A stretch of 40,368 nt of DNA, taken from the NCBI GenBank assembly GCA_029246865.1, contig JAQWMI010000034.1, positions 1-40,368 on the forward strand. The letters are read 5' to 3'. This DNA is from Alphaproteobacteria bacterium. Its GTDB lineage: Bacteria > Pseudomonadota > Alphaproteobacteria > HIMB59. Positions 4,005-37,751 of this stretch are shown here, piece after piece. Numbering within the stretch: the first letter of the stretch is position 1; every line of letters starts with the position of its first letter. A model generated the notes under the pieces. It had not been told where the DNA came from. It was given only the letters and a program-made list of their open reading frames with translations, and made no database searches. Position numbers and translations under genes: made by a program.

Positions 4005-4462
4005 TCAATCAATTCTTGAAAAAAAATAGACAATATTACAAACCCGCATAAAAAATAACTACCAAGCTCAACTTTCATCTCTGTAAAGAAAGACAATTTA
4101 AAAATTGTAACTGCAATTGCAATCAATAATAAGTCTAACATTGACCATTTAGTAAAAAAATACAAAAATTTCTTAATAACTATAGTGTGAGGTTTAATAA
4201 ACACTAAAATGGAAAATAGAAACTTTAATGACGGAATTATAACTGTGCTAATTGCTAAAACTAGGAATAAAAATAACTCCTTATTAATATAAAGAGCTGT
4301 CAAAATATTGATAATGTTTTTCTTTTGAGTAAAGAAAAAGAAATTTTCGACAGAAAATAGAGGAAAGTACAAAAAACCAATAAATAAAACAAGTTGGATT
4401 GATAGGTAGGTGTAAATTAATATACGTTTTATTTTCATAATATTTTCAATCATTATTAACAT
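4001..4462 (-). CDS. PqiA-like (paraquat-inducible protein A domain) membrane protein
   Basis: A 153-residue protein with four predicted membrane helices (about residues 12-32, 58-80, 106-124, 133-150). The motif TKWSMLDLLLIAIAV matches the 'KWSM.D....' segment that marks PqiA/YebS-type domains. E. coli PqiA has two such domains and works with the MCE protein PqiB in envelope lipid transport. Here there is a single domain, with no MCE gene beside it in the window, and the zinc-ribbon cysteines of PqiA are absent. Start chosen at ATG 4462; ATG 4453 is also possible. It converges on and overlaps the dipeptidase gene by 4 bp and is divergent from the small ORF at 4510. Confidence 0.7.
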   Translation of the reverse strand: MLIMIENIMKIKRILIYTYLSIQLVLFIGFLYFPLFSVENFFFFTQKKNIINILTALYINKELFLFLVLAISTVIIPSLKFLFSILVFIKPHTIVIKKFLYFFTKWSMLDLLLIAIAVTIFKLSFFTEMKVELGSYFLCGFVILSIFFQELID

Positions 4463-4509
4463 TCATAGTTTTATTTCACCATTTAATAAAATTATGATAT
4501 GTTTTTTTA

Positions 4510-4698
4510 ATGGGATTGCACTTTGATCATAAATCTAAAGCTGGTGAAAGAGCTATGGAAAAAGAGAGAAAACGTCTTGAAAAGCTTGCAGAAAAAAAAG
4601 CTAAAAGAGAAGCCAAAAGAGAGGCAGATGAACTAGCTGAACTTGAAAGGCTCACTAACCCAAATGCTCCTGCTGATCCCAATACTGAGACTGAATAA
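4510..4698 (+). CDS. Small highly charged hypothetical protein
   Basis: A 62-residue protein, mostly one long Lys/Glu/Arg/Ala-rich helix (residues about 10-50, with AEKKAKREAKREADELAEL) and a short Pro/Asn/Thr tail. A coiled coil or nucleic-acid-associated helix is likely. I do not recognise a family. It has no Shine-Dalgarno; a TATGAT hexamer at 4493-4498 lies 11 nt before the ATG, consistent with a very short leader. It stands alone between divergent PqiA-like and convergent DUF3445 genes. Its length, its ATG and the tight 2-nt spacing to the converging stop codon at 4701 argue that it is real. Confidence 0.6.
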   Translation: MGLHFDHKSKAGERAMEKERKRLEKLAEKKAKREAKREADELAELERLTNPNAPADPNTETE

Positions 4699-22733: not shown

Positions 22734-24149
22734 ATCGCACACAACACTTTATATTGGTTAAGAAGAGACCTTAGGATTGTTGATAATCCATGCTTAGCCC
22801 ATCTTCAGTATAATAAGTCCCCAGTTCTTGCTGTCTACATCTTGGATGATGTTGAAAAAAACTCTCTAGGAAAAGCATCTTCTTGGTGGTTGCAAAAATC
22901 ACTAGAAAAACTAGTACAGGAATATAAAAAAAAATTTAACGTAGACCTTTTAGTTTGCGAAGGTGATGCTTTAAAAATTTTAGAGCGTTTTATCAAAAAA
23001 TATCAAATTAAAGAAGTGATATGGAATAGGCTCTATTCTAAACAAACCATTCAAAGAGATTCATCTTTGAAAAAAAAATTAGAATTAGAAAATATAATAG
23101 TTTCTAGTTTCAATTCTCATCTCTTAAACGAACCTTGGGAAATTAAAAATAATTCAGGTGAGTTTTTTAAAGTCTTTACTCCTTATTGGAGAAAATCATA
23201 CCCATTTTTTTTAGAAAAGAATTATAGTTATCAGGAAATAAAAAAAATTTTACCAATTAAGCACGATGAAAAAAAAGAACAATTTTATTTTCTTCCTAAT
23301 AAGAAATGGTATGAAAAATTTGAGCAGTACTGGATACCCGGAGAGAAAAATGCTTTACAAAAAATTGATCAATATATAGAGCAGAATATAAATCATTATA
23401 AAATTAACAGGGATAGACCTGATATTGACCAAACATCTAGAATTTCACCTCACCTTAAGTTTGGCGAAATTTCTCCAAGAGTGATAGTAGATAAAATAGT
23501 AAAAAATACAGTTACTAATGAGTCTATATTAACATATCTATCAGAAATAGGCTGGAGAGAATTCTCTTACACACTATTGTATTATGCTGATGATTTGAAA
23601 TATAAGCCTATTAATAAGAAATTTGAAAAATTTAATTGGGTTAAAAATAAAATTCAATTTAATTCTTGGAAAAAGGGAGAAACTGGTTTTCCTATTGTCG
23701 ATGCTGCTATGTTACAGCTATATGAGGAGGGTTGGATGCATAATAGATTAAGAATGATTGTAGGAAGCTTTTTAGTCAAAAATCTTAGAATTCATTGGCA
23801 TGAGGGTGAGAATTATTTTCAAGATTGTTTGCTTGACTATGATGAAGCTAGTAATCCCGCAGGTTGGCAATGGGTCTCTGGATGTGGGGCTGATGCTGCC
23901 CCTTATTTTCGAATTTTCAATCCAATCTTGCAAAGTGAAAGATTTGACCCCCAAGCAAAATTTATTCTTAAATTTCTTCCTCAATTAAAATTACTCGAAA
24001 AAGTAAAATTTATTTTTCAACCTTGGTTAAACCAGCCTGTTCTTAATGAACTAATTAAATCTAATAAATATATATCGCCCATAGTTGACCTGAGTGTATC
24101 TCGTAATAAAGCGCTTGATGCATTTAAAGAAATAAACCAAAAAATATAA
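22734..24149 (+). CDS. phr: Deoxyribodipyrimidine photolyase with an unusual start codon
   Basis: Repairs cyclobutane pyrimidine dimers with blue light. The frame is open from directly after the rpmG stop (22716) and its N-terminus TLYWLRRDLRIVDNPCLAHL is the conserved first strand of the antenna domain. No ATG, GTG or TTG precedes it in frame: the first usual start, TTG 22842, would remove this strand. The best fit is ATC at 22734, giving 471 residues (E. coli PhrB has 472). The FAD domain is complete: TSRISPHLKFGEISP, EIGWREFSY, WKKGETGFPIVDAAMLQL, WMHNRLRMI and DEASNPAGWQWVSGCGADAAPYFRIFNP. Start-codon mutation, AUC initiation or a sequence error are the alternatives. It heads the FAD-DUF1365-Cfa cluster (2-bp gap). 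Confidence 0.87.
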   Translation: MAHNTLYWLRRDLRIVDNPCLAHLQYNKSPVLAVYILDDVEKNSLGKASSWWLQKSLEKLVQEYKKKFNVDLLVCEGDALKILERFIKKYQIKEVIWNRLYSKQTIQRDSSLKKKLELENIIVSSFNSHLLNEPWEIKNNSGEFFKVFTPYWRKSYPFFLEKNYSYQEIKKILPIKHDEKKEQFYFLPNKKWYEKFEQYWIPGEKNALQKIDQYIEQNINHYKINRDRPDIDQTSRISPHLKFGEISPRVIVDKIVKNTVTNESILTYLSEIGWREFSYTLLYYADDLKYKPINKKFEKFNWVKNKIQFNSWKKGETGFPIVDAAMLQLYEEGWMHNRLRMIVGSFLVKNLRIHWHEGENYFQDCLLDYDEASNPAGWQWVSGCGADAAPYFRIFNPILQSERFDPQAKFILKFLPQLKLLEKVKFIFQPWLNQPVLNELIKSNKYISPIVDLSVSRNKALDAFKEINQKI

Positions 24150-35178: not shown

Positions 35179-35994
35179 ATGAATTTCTTAATGATAGGCG
35201 ACGTTGTTGGAAGAACTGGTAGAAATGCTCTTAAATCCCATCTTTCAGAAATAAAAAGAAAATTTGAAATTGATTTTACAATTGTGAATGCTGAAAACTC
35301 AGCTGCAGGATTTGGTATTACTCCTAAAATCTATGAAGAATTCATATCAATGGGAGTTGATGCGGTGACATTAGGAAATCATTCCTGGGATAAAAACGAA
35401 ATAATTGATTACATGGAATTGAACCCTAATCACTCTATAATAAGACCCCTTAATTTCTTAAATAACTCTCCGGGCAGGGGCTATAAAATTTTTGATCATT
35501 CTAACGGAAAAAAAATATTAGTTTGTCAAATTCATACAAAGTTATTTATTAATTTACCTTTAAATGATCCTTTTCAATGTTTGGATACAGAAATTATTTC
35601 TCTTTTAGAAGCAGGTAAAGCCGATTACTCTTTTTTAGAAGTTCATGGTGAGGCTACTTCCGAAAAAAATGGTATAGGACAGCACTATGACGGTAAATTT
35701 ACAGGTATTTATGGAACTCATACTCATATACCAACAGCTGATGCTAGAGTCCTTGCCAAAGGTACTGCATTTCAAACAGATATAGGTATGACTGGTGATT
35801 ATGAATCGATAATTGGTATGAAAAAAGAAAGTGCTATAAAAAGGATGCGTACAGGGATGAATTCTAATAGACTTGAACCAGCTGATGGTGAGGCCACTAT
35901 TTCTGGAATAATTATAAAAAGAGATATTGAAAATAGCAGTACGACAATTCAATCAATTTTAATAGGAGGAATTCTCAATAGAGAAGTGTTTTAA
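35179..35994 (+). CDS. TIGR00282-type metallophosphoesterase (YmdB-like)
   Basis: A 271-residue metal-dependent phosphoesterase. Motifs: LMIGDVVGRTGR at the N-terminus, NAENSAAGFGIT, TLGNHSWDKNEI, VEVHGEATSE and GTHTHIPTADARVL with metal-binding histidines. Bacillus YmdB hydrolyses 2',3'-cyclic nucleotides; the alphaproteobacterial role is unknown. It starts 2 bp after the ligase stop and ends 1 bp before yebC. Confidence 0.9.
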   Translation: MNFLMIGDVVGRTGRNALKSHLSEIKRKFEIDFTIVNAENSAAGFGITPKIYEEFISMGVDAVTLGNHSWDKNEIIDYMELNPNHSIIRPLNFLNNSPGRGYKIFDHSNGKKILVCQIHTKLFINLPLNDPFQCLDTEIISLLEAGKADYSFLEVHGEATSEKNGIGQHYDGKFTGIYGTHTHIPTADARVLAKGTAFQTDIGMTGDYESIIGMKKESAIKRMRTGMNSNRLEPADGEATISGIIIKRDIENSSTTIQSILIGGILNREVF

Positions 35995-35995
35995 A

Positions 35996-36736
35996 ATGGC
36001 AGGTCATTCAAAATTTAAAAATATTCAATTTCGTAAAGGAGCTCAAGATAAAAAAAGGGCAAAGCAATTTGGAAAAATAGGAAGAGAAATTCAAATTGCC
36101 TCTAAACTTGGTGGTCCTGATCCAGAAACAAATCCAAGATTAAGACTTGCTATTAATAATGGGCGCAGTGTTAATATGCCAAAAGATAATATTGAAAGAG
36201 CAATTAACAAAAATAATACTGACACTGCTGATTACTCAGAAATAAGATACGAGGGATACGGTCCGTACGGTACAGCATTTATTGTTGAAGCCCTAACTGA
36301 CAATAAAAATAGAACAGCAACAGAAATCAGGACAATTTTTTCAAGAAATGGAGGTAACTTAGGTGAAACAGGAAGTGTGAGTTACAATTTTGATAAAGTT
36401 GGAGAAGTTGTAATCAAAAGTATATTAGAAGATGATATGATTGAAAATTTAATTGAAATAGGTGTGGAAGATTACTCTTTGGAACGAGAGGAGACCTATC
36501 TTTATTGTAAATTTGAGGACTTATTTTCAATTGAAAAATTTGTTCGAGAAAAAGAGTTGTCTGTAGAGGCCGCTAAATTAATATGGAAACCTAATATTAG
36601 CGTTGAAATTACTAGCAAAGAGGATTTAGAAAAACTTTTAAAGCTGTCCGACGACTTAGAGGATAATGATGACGTCCAAAACTGTTTCTCTAATTTAGAT
36701 TTTGATAGTAGATTGATTGAAGAATCAGATGCCTGA
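35996..36736 (+). CDS. yebC: YebC/PmpR-family protein
   Basis: 246 residues. MAGHSKFKNIQFRKGAQDKKRAKQF is the YebC start. It has IYEVEGYGP-like segment IRYEGYGPYGTAFIVEALTDNKNRT and a helix-rich acidic C-terminus. The family is thought to act at the ribosome or as a transcription factor. In relatives it is followed by ruvCAB; here the next gene is a small unknown nuclease-like protein overlapping by 8 bp. Confidence 0.95.
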   Translation: MAGHSKFKNIQFRKGAQDKKRAKQFGKIGREIQIASKLGGPDPETNPRLRLAINNGRSVNMPKDNIERAINKNNTDTADYSEIRYEGYGPYGTAFIVEALTDNKNRTATEIRTIFSRNGGNLGETGSVSYNFDKVGEVVIKSILEDDMIENLIEIGVEDYSLEREETYLYCKFEDLFSIEKFVREKELSVEAAKLIWKPNISVEITSKEDLEKLLKLSDDLEDNDDVQNCFSNLDFDSRLIEESDA

Positions 36737-37049
36737 TAAAGCTTGGAAAAATAGAGAGCGTTTAGTGTCAAAGTTTTTTGGCGGAATTAGAAATGCCCTA
36801 AGTGGAATAAATTCAAAAGTTACTCATGCAGACGTAATTCATGACGAGCTTTTTATTGAATGTAAATTAAGAGCTAAGCACTCAGCTGTAAAGCTTTGGG
36901 ACGATACCAAAGTTTATGCCGATAAAGAAAAAAAAATACCTGTGATAGCTTTATGTGAAAAAAATAGACCTGGCTTTTGGGTGATGGTTCATTCTGATGA
37001 TTTAGAAGCAGTTTCAAAAATAACGAACGGTTTAAAGGAGATAAAATAA
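36729..37049 (+). CDS. Putative PDDEXK-type nuclease in the ruvC position
   Basis: A 106-residue soluble protein from ATG 36729 (a TTG at 36717 is in frame but less likely). Pattern: WKNRERLVSKFFGG (E10), ALSGINSKVTHADVIHDELFIECK with D35 and E44-x-K46, then a basic helix, and KIPVIALCEKNRPGFWVMVHSDDL. This order, Glu, Asp, Glu-x-Lys and a following helix, is the PDDEXK nuclease core as seen in small Holliday-junction or phage-type resolvases. The gene is overlapped by yebC (8 bp) and followed immediately by tolQ. It might replace RuvC (inference). I do not recognise a named family with certainty. Confidence 0.55.
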   Translation: MPDKAWKNRERLVSKFFGGIRNALSGINSKVTHADVIHDELFIECKLRAKHSAVKLWDDTKVYADKEKKIPVIALCEKNRPGFWVMVHSDDLEAVSKITNGLKEIK

Positions 37050-37751
37050 ATGGAAAACGAAGTAGTTAATTTAGCATCTATGAAAGGTTCAGTTGATTTC
37101 TCAATGTTCTCTATGTTCTTTAAATCAGATTGGATTGTTAAGTTTGTTATACTCCTTCTTGTAGTGTTTTCTATTCAATCATGGAAAATTATCATACAAA
37201 AAATTCTGACAATCAGTAAAATGAGAAGAACTTCAAAAAAATTTGAAAATCACTTTTGGTCTGGTGTTACTTTAGATGAACTTCATGAGCAAATTGAAGA
37301 TTTTGAAGAAGAAAGTTTTTCAACAGTTTTCAAAAATATTATGGATGAATATGATAAGTCAATAAAATCTAAAGCCAAAATGGATAGTTTTTTAGTCCAA
37401 AGATTAGAAACTGTTTTAGAATTAAGTGTAAGCAACGAAGATTCAAAATTAAATGGAGGTTTATCTTTTCTCGCTTCATCAGGTTCTGTCGCTCCATTTA
37501 TAGGATTATTTGGAACTGTTTGGGGAATAATGCATAGCTTTCAAGCAATAGCTATTGCGCAAAATACTAATCTAGCAGTGGTAGCTCCTGGCATAGCTGA
37601 AGCCCTATTTGTAACTGCCCTTGGCCTGTTTGTTGCCATTCCATCAACTGCTTTTTATAATTTAATCACAGCACGAATTGATAGCTATTTATCCGAAGTA
37701 GAAAACTTTGGGAAAGATTTGGTAAATATTATCTCTAGACAAATGAGCTAA
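37050..37751 (+). CDS. tolQ: Tol-Pal system protein TolQ
   Basis: A 233-residue inner-membrane proton-channel subunit with three membrane helices (about 28-48, 142-165, 178-200). GLSFLASSGSVAPFIGLFGTVWGIMHSFQ and ALFVTALGLFVAIPSTAFYN match the MotA/TolQ/ExbB core. It starts immediately after the nuclease-like gene, and its TAA overlaps the tolR ATG by one base. YbgC, common before tolQ, is absent. Confidence 0.95.
   Translation: MENEVVNLASMKGSVDFSMFSMFFKSDWIVKFVILLLVVFSIQSWKIIIQKILTISKMRRTSKKFENHFWSGVTLDELHEQIEDFEEESFSTVFKNIMDEYDKSIKSKAKMDSFLVQRLETVLELSVSNEDSKLNGGLSFLASSGSVAPFIGLFGTVWGIMHSFQAIAIAQNTNLAVVAPGIAEALFVTALGLFVAIPSTAFYNLITARIDSYLSEVENFGKDLVNIISRQMS

Follow-up and report, generated by a model that had tools for sequence, protein, structure and literature searches.

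How does a bacterium process Holliday junctions when the genes for RuvC, RuvA and RuvB are missing from the place where they are expected? The question is raised by one locus of an alphaproteobacterium of order HIMB59, contained in the window (the whole 40,368-nucleotide stretch of contig JAQWMI010000034.1 that was analysed). A preliminary description, made without database searches, had pointed to a single small PDDEXK-like nuclease gene in the position usually held by ruvCAB. It proposed that the product may be a substitute junction resolvase or a phage-derived nuclease taken over by the host. Our results support both proposals, which hold together, although junction cleavage itself has not been shown. 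We think it likely that the gene product is a small PDDEXK nuclease, metal-dependent and captured from a phage, that resolves Holliday junctions and has replaced the whole of RuvABC between yebC and tolQ, acting with RecG. Cleavage is inferred, and there is no biochemical proof of it.

The nuclease gene and its conservation in order HIMB59

The locus contains the following features, given in coordinates of the window:

35179..35994, + strand: ymdB-like phosphoesterase gene, the conserved left-hand neighbour of yebC
35996..36736, + strand: yebC, whose 3′ end overlaps the start of the nuclease gene by 8 nt
36729..36736, + strand: the 8-nt overlap between the end of yebC and the start of the nuclease gene, ATGCCTGA
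36729..37049, + strand: phage-type PDDEXK nuclease gene, a putative Holliday junction resolvase of 106 aa with E10, D35, E44 and K46
37050..37751, + strand: tolQ, the conserved right-hand neighbour, directly downstream of the nuclease gene

The tolR, tolA and tolB genes are also found in the window after tolQ, and everything from ymdB through tolB lies on the + strand. The nuclease reading frame begins with an ATG at 36729 and its stop codon ends at 37049, abutting the tolQ ATG at 37050. The preliminary description had given the coordinates, the length and the position between yebC and tolQ exactly, and its numbering of E10, D35, E44-x-K46 and the segment GFWVMVHSDDL (residues 82-92) is correct. 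The same 8-nt spacing between yebC and the nuclease gene occurs in nearly all loci of the bacterium's own family, and the overlap makes translational coupling of the two genes probable. We regard the reading frame as a real gene because it overlaps yebC, abuts tolQ, is retained across the order and is under purifying selection.

The gene is present in 135 of the 162 genomes of the order, as a rule in one copy per genome, and in all 20 genomes that are at least 90% complete with low contamination. Every cellular locus that was fetched (110/110, a set that includes repeats of the same genome) has yebC upstream and tolQ downstream. Within the family dN/dS is ~0.04-0.11, which indicates purifying selection. 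The order comprises the families HIMB59 and GCA002718135 (PMC10734472), a make-up matched by the two families, f1 and f2, into which our genomes fall. Between f1 and f2 the nuclease proteins are 72-74% identical, compared with ~49-54% for YebC, 45-47% for TolQ and 44-49% for YmdB from the same loci. Either constraint or subsequent exchange with phages could account for the higher conservation of the nuclease.

Contig C14 of genome G073 carries two copies of the gene, at 2118-2405 and 22926-23216, one of them inside a 305-aa open frame; a fusion, a phage copy or an assembly artefact are possible explanations. Separately, a contig titled Gammaproteobacteria bacterium TMED225 (L073) carries a typical HIMB59-order locus and is probably a misnamed bin.

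Loss of RuvABC and retention of other recombination genes

Other sampled Alphaproteobacteria (G168 and G369) have the same gene order, yebC-ruvC-ruvA-ruvB-...-tolQ, as the preliminary description anticipated for this interval. The nuclease therefore occupies the ruvCAB position. So far as searched, the ruv genes are missing not only from the locus but throughout the genome and the order. A search for all three had been suggested in the preliminary description. It found RuvC (PF02075) and RuvA_N (PF01330) in none of the 44 order genomes that are at least 85% complete, with positive controls detected in both cases, and no true ruvB in the genomes of the order. The RuvB_N model matches in all genomes, archaeal controls included, and within the order it detects no more than weak AAA+ similarity, in frames of different lengths. 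These frames (~420, 540-580, 790-815 and 640-660 aa) were rejected as RuvB on the basis of lengths that fit other AAA+ proteins, and from their size we infer that they are proteins such as ClpX, DnaX, Lon and FtsH.

A closed genome from the same genus (G111; 1,410,127 bp, 32.3% G+C) was searched directly. RuvA and RuvC queries, taken from other Alphaproteobacteria and from E. coli, found nothing there, nor did an E. coli K-12 RusA query. Genuine RuvB queries reached only E 0.001, over short AAA+ stretches; in relatives that bear ruvB, the E. coli RuvB query gives E 1e-105 and 1e-132.

Carriage of the nuclease and absence of ruvC go together outside the order as well. Among 386 Alphaproteobacteria genomes the nuclease family was found in 7, six of the order and one (G182) belonging to another order, in which the gene also lies in a yebC-X-tolQ arrangement. 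The ruvC gene is present in 361 of the 386 genomes and in 0 of the 7 carriers. The naive chance of all carriers lacking ruvC is 2e-9, a figure that overstates the evidence because only two lineages are involved. Across 397 genomes sampled from the phylum, the nuclease family appeared only in the genome studied here.

Other parts of the recombination machinery are retained. All 16 genomes tested for RecG, among them the one studied here (G000) and G111, encode it at full length. G111 also encodes a RecA 65% identical to that of E. coli and a homologue of YqgF. A tblastn search of G111 with E. coli RadA did not find RadA; the sole match, a weak one, lies in a Lon-sized frame. Because no RadA was found in G111, helicase-driven branch migration may now fall mainly to RecG.

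The YqgF homologue deserves consideration, as YqgF (RuvX) could itself be the real junction resolvase, with the small nuclease merely assisting it or dispensable. Rocha et al. 2005 raise YqgF as a possible substitute in bacteria without RuvC or RecU, but in most bacteria YqgF is found together with RuvC, and at that time no resolvase activity had been demonstrated for it (PMC1193525). The small nuclease, for its part, occurs universally in the order and shows strong conservation. We consider it very unlikely that YqgF is the resolvase of these cells.

Protein family, predicted fold and phage relatives

The only significant sequence-family match of the 106-aa protein is to PHROG 2002 (E 2.2e-6, residues 3-97 on positions 16-115 of a 130-position profile), and the homologue in lineage f23 matches the same family (E 3.3e-8). 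PHROG 2002 is named "Holliday junction resolvase", a name that is an annotation. Pfam, NCBIfam and PDB sequence searches with the protein gave no usable match. The RuvC (PF02075), RusA (PF05866) and RecU (PF03838) models do not match it, and PDDEXK_15 (PF24608) matches neither the protein nor its aligned homologues. Matches such as that to TPR_ZFYVE26 at E 0.07 were dismissed as chance.

The motif residues E10, D35, E44 and K46 are invariant in every one of the 45 homologues aligned, which come from host as well as viral loci. W6, K7, R11, R21, G26, T32, H38 and other positions are invariant as well. AlphaFold2, run on the 45-homologue alignment, predicts helix 2-17, strand 41-46, helix 53-66, strands 70-75 and 84-86, and helix 89-105 (pLDDT 86.4, pTM 0.82), a PDDEXK-type order of helices and strands. 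In a Foldseek search of the PDB, archaeal Hjc-type resolvases take all of the first 17 places (best E 9e-3, probability 0.96), and the best VIA-align match is the Hjc structure 1gef (Z 7.8, 90 residues). Several matches in a viral structure library are annotated as Holliday junction resolvases. The fold prediction thus agrees with the PDDEXK-like nuclease of the preliminary description, with Hjc as its best solved match. A fold other than PDDEXK would have refuted that description, as would a normal ruvCAB locus together with unconserved acidic residues, and neither was encountered.

The resemblance to archaeal Hjc (e.g. 1gef) lies in the predicted fold and in the order of catalytic residues, where we take E9, D33 and E46-x-K48 of Hjc to correspond to E10, D35 and E44-x-K46 of the nuclease. 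The nuclease differs from archaeal Hjc in being shorter and of bacterial or phage origin, and it fails the Pfam Hjc model (PF01870), with no match for the 106-aa protein at E up to 5 and a best E of 0.15 in 1 of the 45 homologues. Profile comparison of the homologue alignment with P. furiosus Hjc gave E 0.053 and left the catalytic Glu10 uncovered, and a plain global alignment with Hjc also failed. Because these comparisons by sequence alone failed, the link to Hjc rests on fold and motif order only. The predicted PDDEXK fold class is well supported. Membership in Hjc is unsupported, as the fold scores are moderate (Foldseek E >0.001; Z <8), falling slightly short of what would carry the case alone, and Pfam Hjc is unmatched.

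Many unrelated nucleases have a PDDEXK fold, and the Foldseek and VIA-align fold matches also include endonucleases of tRNA splicing and of viral cap-snatching. With no curated Pfam family matched, the protein might be a PDDEXK nuclease with another job, such as nicking during repair, trimming of branched or flap DNA, or defence, its position at the lost ruv locus being coincidental. However, the top structural block consists of Hjc only, and the PHROG family matched is one of junction resolvases. Carriage of the gene and loss of ruvC coincide in two lineages, and different resolvase-family genes stand in the same position of other ruv-less lineages (below). We judge another job to be unlikely, without dismissing it.

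The preliminary description had suggested looking for the gene in marine phage genomes, and close homologues are indeed found beside terminase genes in marine phage contigs. More than 140 stretches in IMG/VR encode homologues; the best 80 are 65-77% identical over ~90-100 residues, and the most distant homologue of the first viral scan is 58% identical. Of the 91 viral loci, a set with some contigs fetched twice, 87 encode the large terminase subunit downstream, within 700 bp, usually together with the small terminase subunit and portal. None of the viral loci examined encodes yebC or tolQ. INPHARED yielded only two homologue records, from a Bacteroides phage and a fecal phage, at 41-43% identity, so we have no cultured marine phage with a close copy. 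In Bacteroides phage BS162P1 (L128 5323-6315) a gene of 330 aa with the annotation I-HmuI-like endonuclease has the homologue, at 41%, as its C-terminal portion, so that two nucleases appear to have been fused.

In maximum-likelihood trees the host genes are nested inside viral diversity, and family f2 groups with two viral sequences (support 97/95). Topology tests do not reject a single host clade of f1 and f2 (AU p 0.40) and are borderline for f1, f2 and f23 together (p 0.09), so that neither a single capture nor two captures can be taken as proven. The simpler interpretation is a transfer from phage to host; its direction is an inference, which a tree cannot prove. Like the PHROG 2002 phage resolvases, the HIMB59-order gene has a near-full-length sequence match to that family, a PDDEXK motif and phage homologues that mostly lie beside terminase genes. 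It differs from them as a chromosomal housekeeping gene that overlaps yebC and is fixed in a bacterial order.

The terminase genes that adjoin close homologues in phage contigs could also suggest a prophage or gene-transfer-agent remnant, kept for phage purposes rather than for the host. A prophage remnant was rejected, as phage genes flank the nuclease in no host locus; yebC comes before it and tolQ after. Furthermore, the gene is present in all near-complete genomes and is better conserved than its housekeeping neighbours yebC and ymdB. There is very little room left for this explanation, and we give it almost no credence.

In the reading that we prefer, a phage-captured resolvase standing in for RuvABC, the source would be a tailed phage in which the family, beside the terminase genes, probably rids the DNA of branches before it is packaged. 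Such a clearing role ahead of packaging is ascribed to phage junction resolvases (PMC3864405). Between yebC and tolQ the captured gene would have supplanted ruvC-ruvA-ruvB, with fixation in the ancestor of the order. RecA would make joint molecules and RecG would migrate the four-way junction. A dimer of the nuclease would then bind the crossover and nick two opposite strands, with E10, D35, E44 and K46 holding the metal ions. Junction binding, dimerisation, cleavage and the partnership with RecG are all inferred. Counting against this reading are the lack of biochemical proof, the moderate Hjc fold matches, the many nucleases that share a PDDEXK fold, the absence of a Pfam or NCBIfam family and the retention of YqgF.

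Resolvase genes after yebC in other streamlined lineages

Three further groups of loci bear on how general this arrangement may be:

L252, 4405-4899, - strand: PHROG 1770 resolvase gene of family f89, also in L253, L254 and L369-L372
L380, ~4170-4570, - strand: PDDEXK gene of f230 (genome G894), between yebC and tolQ
L242, 1745-2251, + strand: PDDEXK_15 gene of f44, also in L243

Family f89, probably Pelagibacterales to judge by its genome size and gene order, encodes a 164-165-aa phage RuvC-like resolvase between yebC and tolQ (PHROG 1770, E 5e-37) that has no Pfam RuvC match. PHROG 1770 matches 124 of ~130 genomes of this family. The f89 case resembles that of the HIMB59 order in its yebC-tolQ locus, in the loss of ruvC and ruvA and in its phage-type, single-gene substitute. 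It differs in that the resolvase is of a RuvC-like family and not PDDEXK, which makes it a separate replacement.

PHROG 1770 was not found in f230, the sister family of f89 in the same order. In G894, the only f230 genome read, the gene between yebC and tolQ encodes a PDDEXK protein of 126 aa (PF24608 E 4e-8, PHROG 244 E 2e-20). In f44 (2 of 3 genomes seen) a 168-aa PDDEXK_15 protein is encoded directly after yebC (PF24608 E 3e-21). There the gene is followed by tilS-, ftsH- and glmM-like genes. These PF24608 PDDEXK_15/PHROG 244 endonucleases share the post-yebC position, the PDDEXK class and occurrence in streamlined lineages with the HIMB59-order nuclease, but are a different family; the f230 protein is a distant relative (hhalign E 6e-5). 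Neither RuvC nor RuvA occurs in f44, f89 or f23; f230 was outside the genome-wide search.

Taken with the loci of the HIMB59 order and of f23, these genes amount to three resolvase families in the slot, in up to five lineages. On balance we favour, with reservations, the view that the complete RuvABC was lost several times independently in streamlined marine Alphaproteobacteria. Each time a junction resolvase of phage type would have replaced it in situ, directly after yebC: PHROG 2002 in the HIMB59 order and f23, PHROG 1770 in f89, and PDDEXK_15/PHROG 244 in f230 and f44. The post-yebC slot would then be a site of repeated capture, and RecG together with a single nuclease of phage type would suffice for recombination. 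That the swap recurs in place suggests a preference, under genome streamlining, for a 0.3-kb gene over a three-gene machine.

The substitution of RecU for RuvC in Firmicutes, in which RuvAB stays, is the textbook analogous replacement (PMC1193525). Both RecU and the HIMB59-order nuclease are nucleases unrelated to RuvC that do, or in our case would do, its job in a bacterial clade. RecU, however, replaces RuvC only, with RuvAB kept and recU rarely adjoining it, whereas the HIMB59 order is also without RuvAB. In a survey of 117 species, RuvAB and a RuvC/RecU resolvase belonged to the core genes and showed little horizontal transfer; only 10 of the 117 genomes lacked both RuvC and RecU, and prophage-encoded proteins were suggested as possible substitutes (PMC1193525). 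Our literature search, restricted to open-licence papers, found no paper describing a replacement of RuvABC like that of the HIMB59 order. The full loss of RuvABC across an order, its in-place replacement by a phage-type gene and the recurrence at one locus appear to be new.

RuvABC is regarded as near-universal in bacteria, and here a whole order of abundant ocean bacteria is without all three proteins. How a cell recombines without RuvAB becomes directly testable, as does the question whether streamlined marine bacteria rely for recombination on a possibly promiscuous phage-type nuclease. If the recurrent-capture reading is true, RecG and one phage-type nuclease suffice in some of the most abundant cells of the sea.
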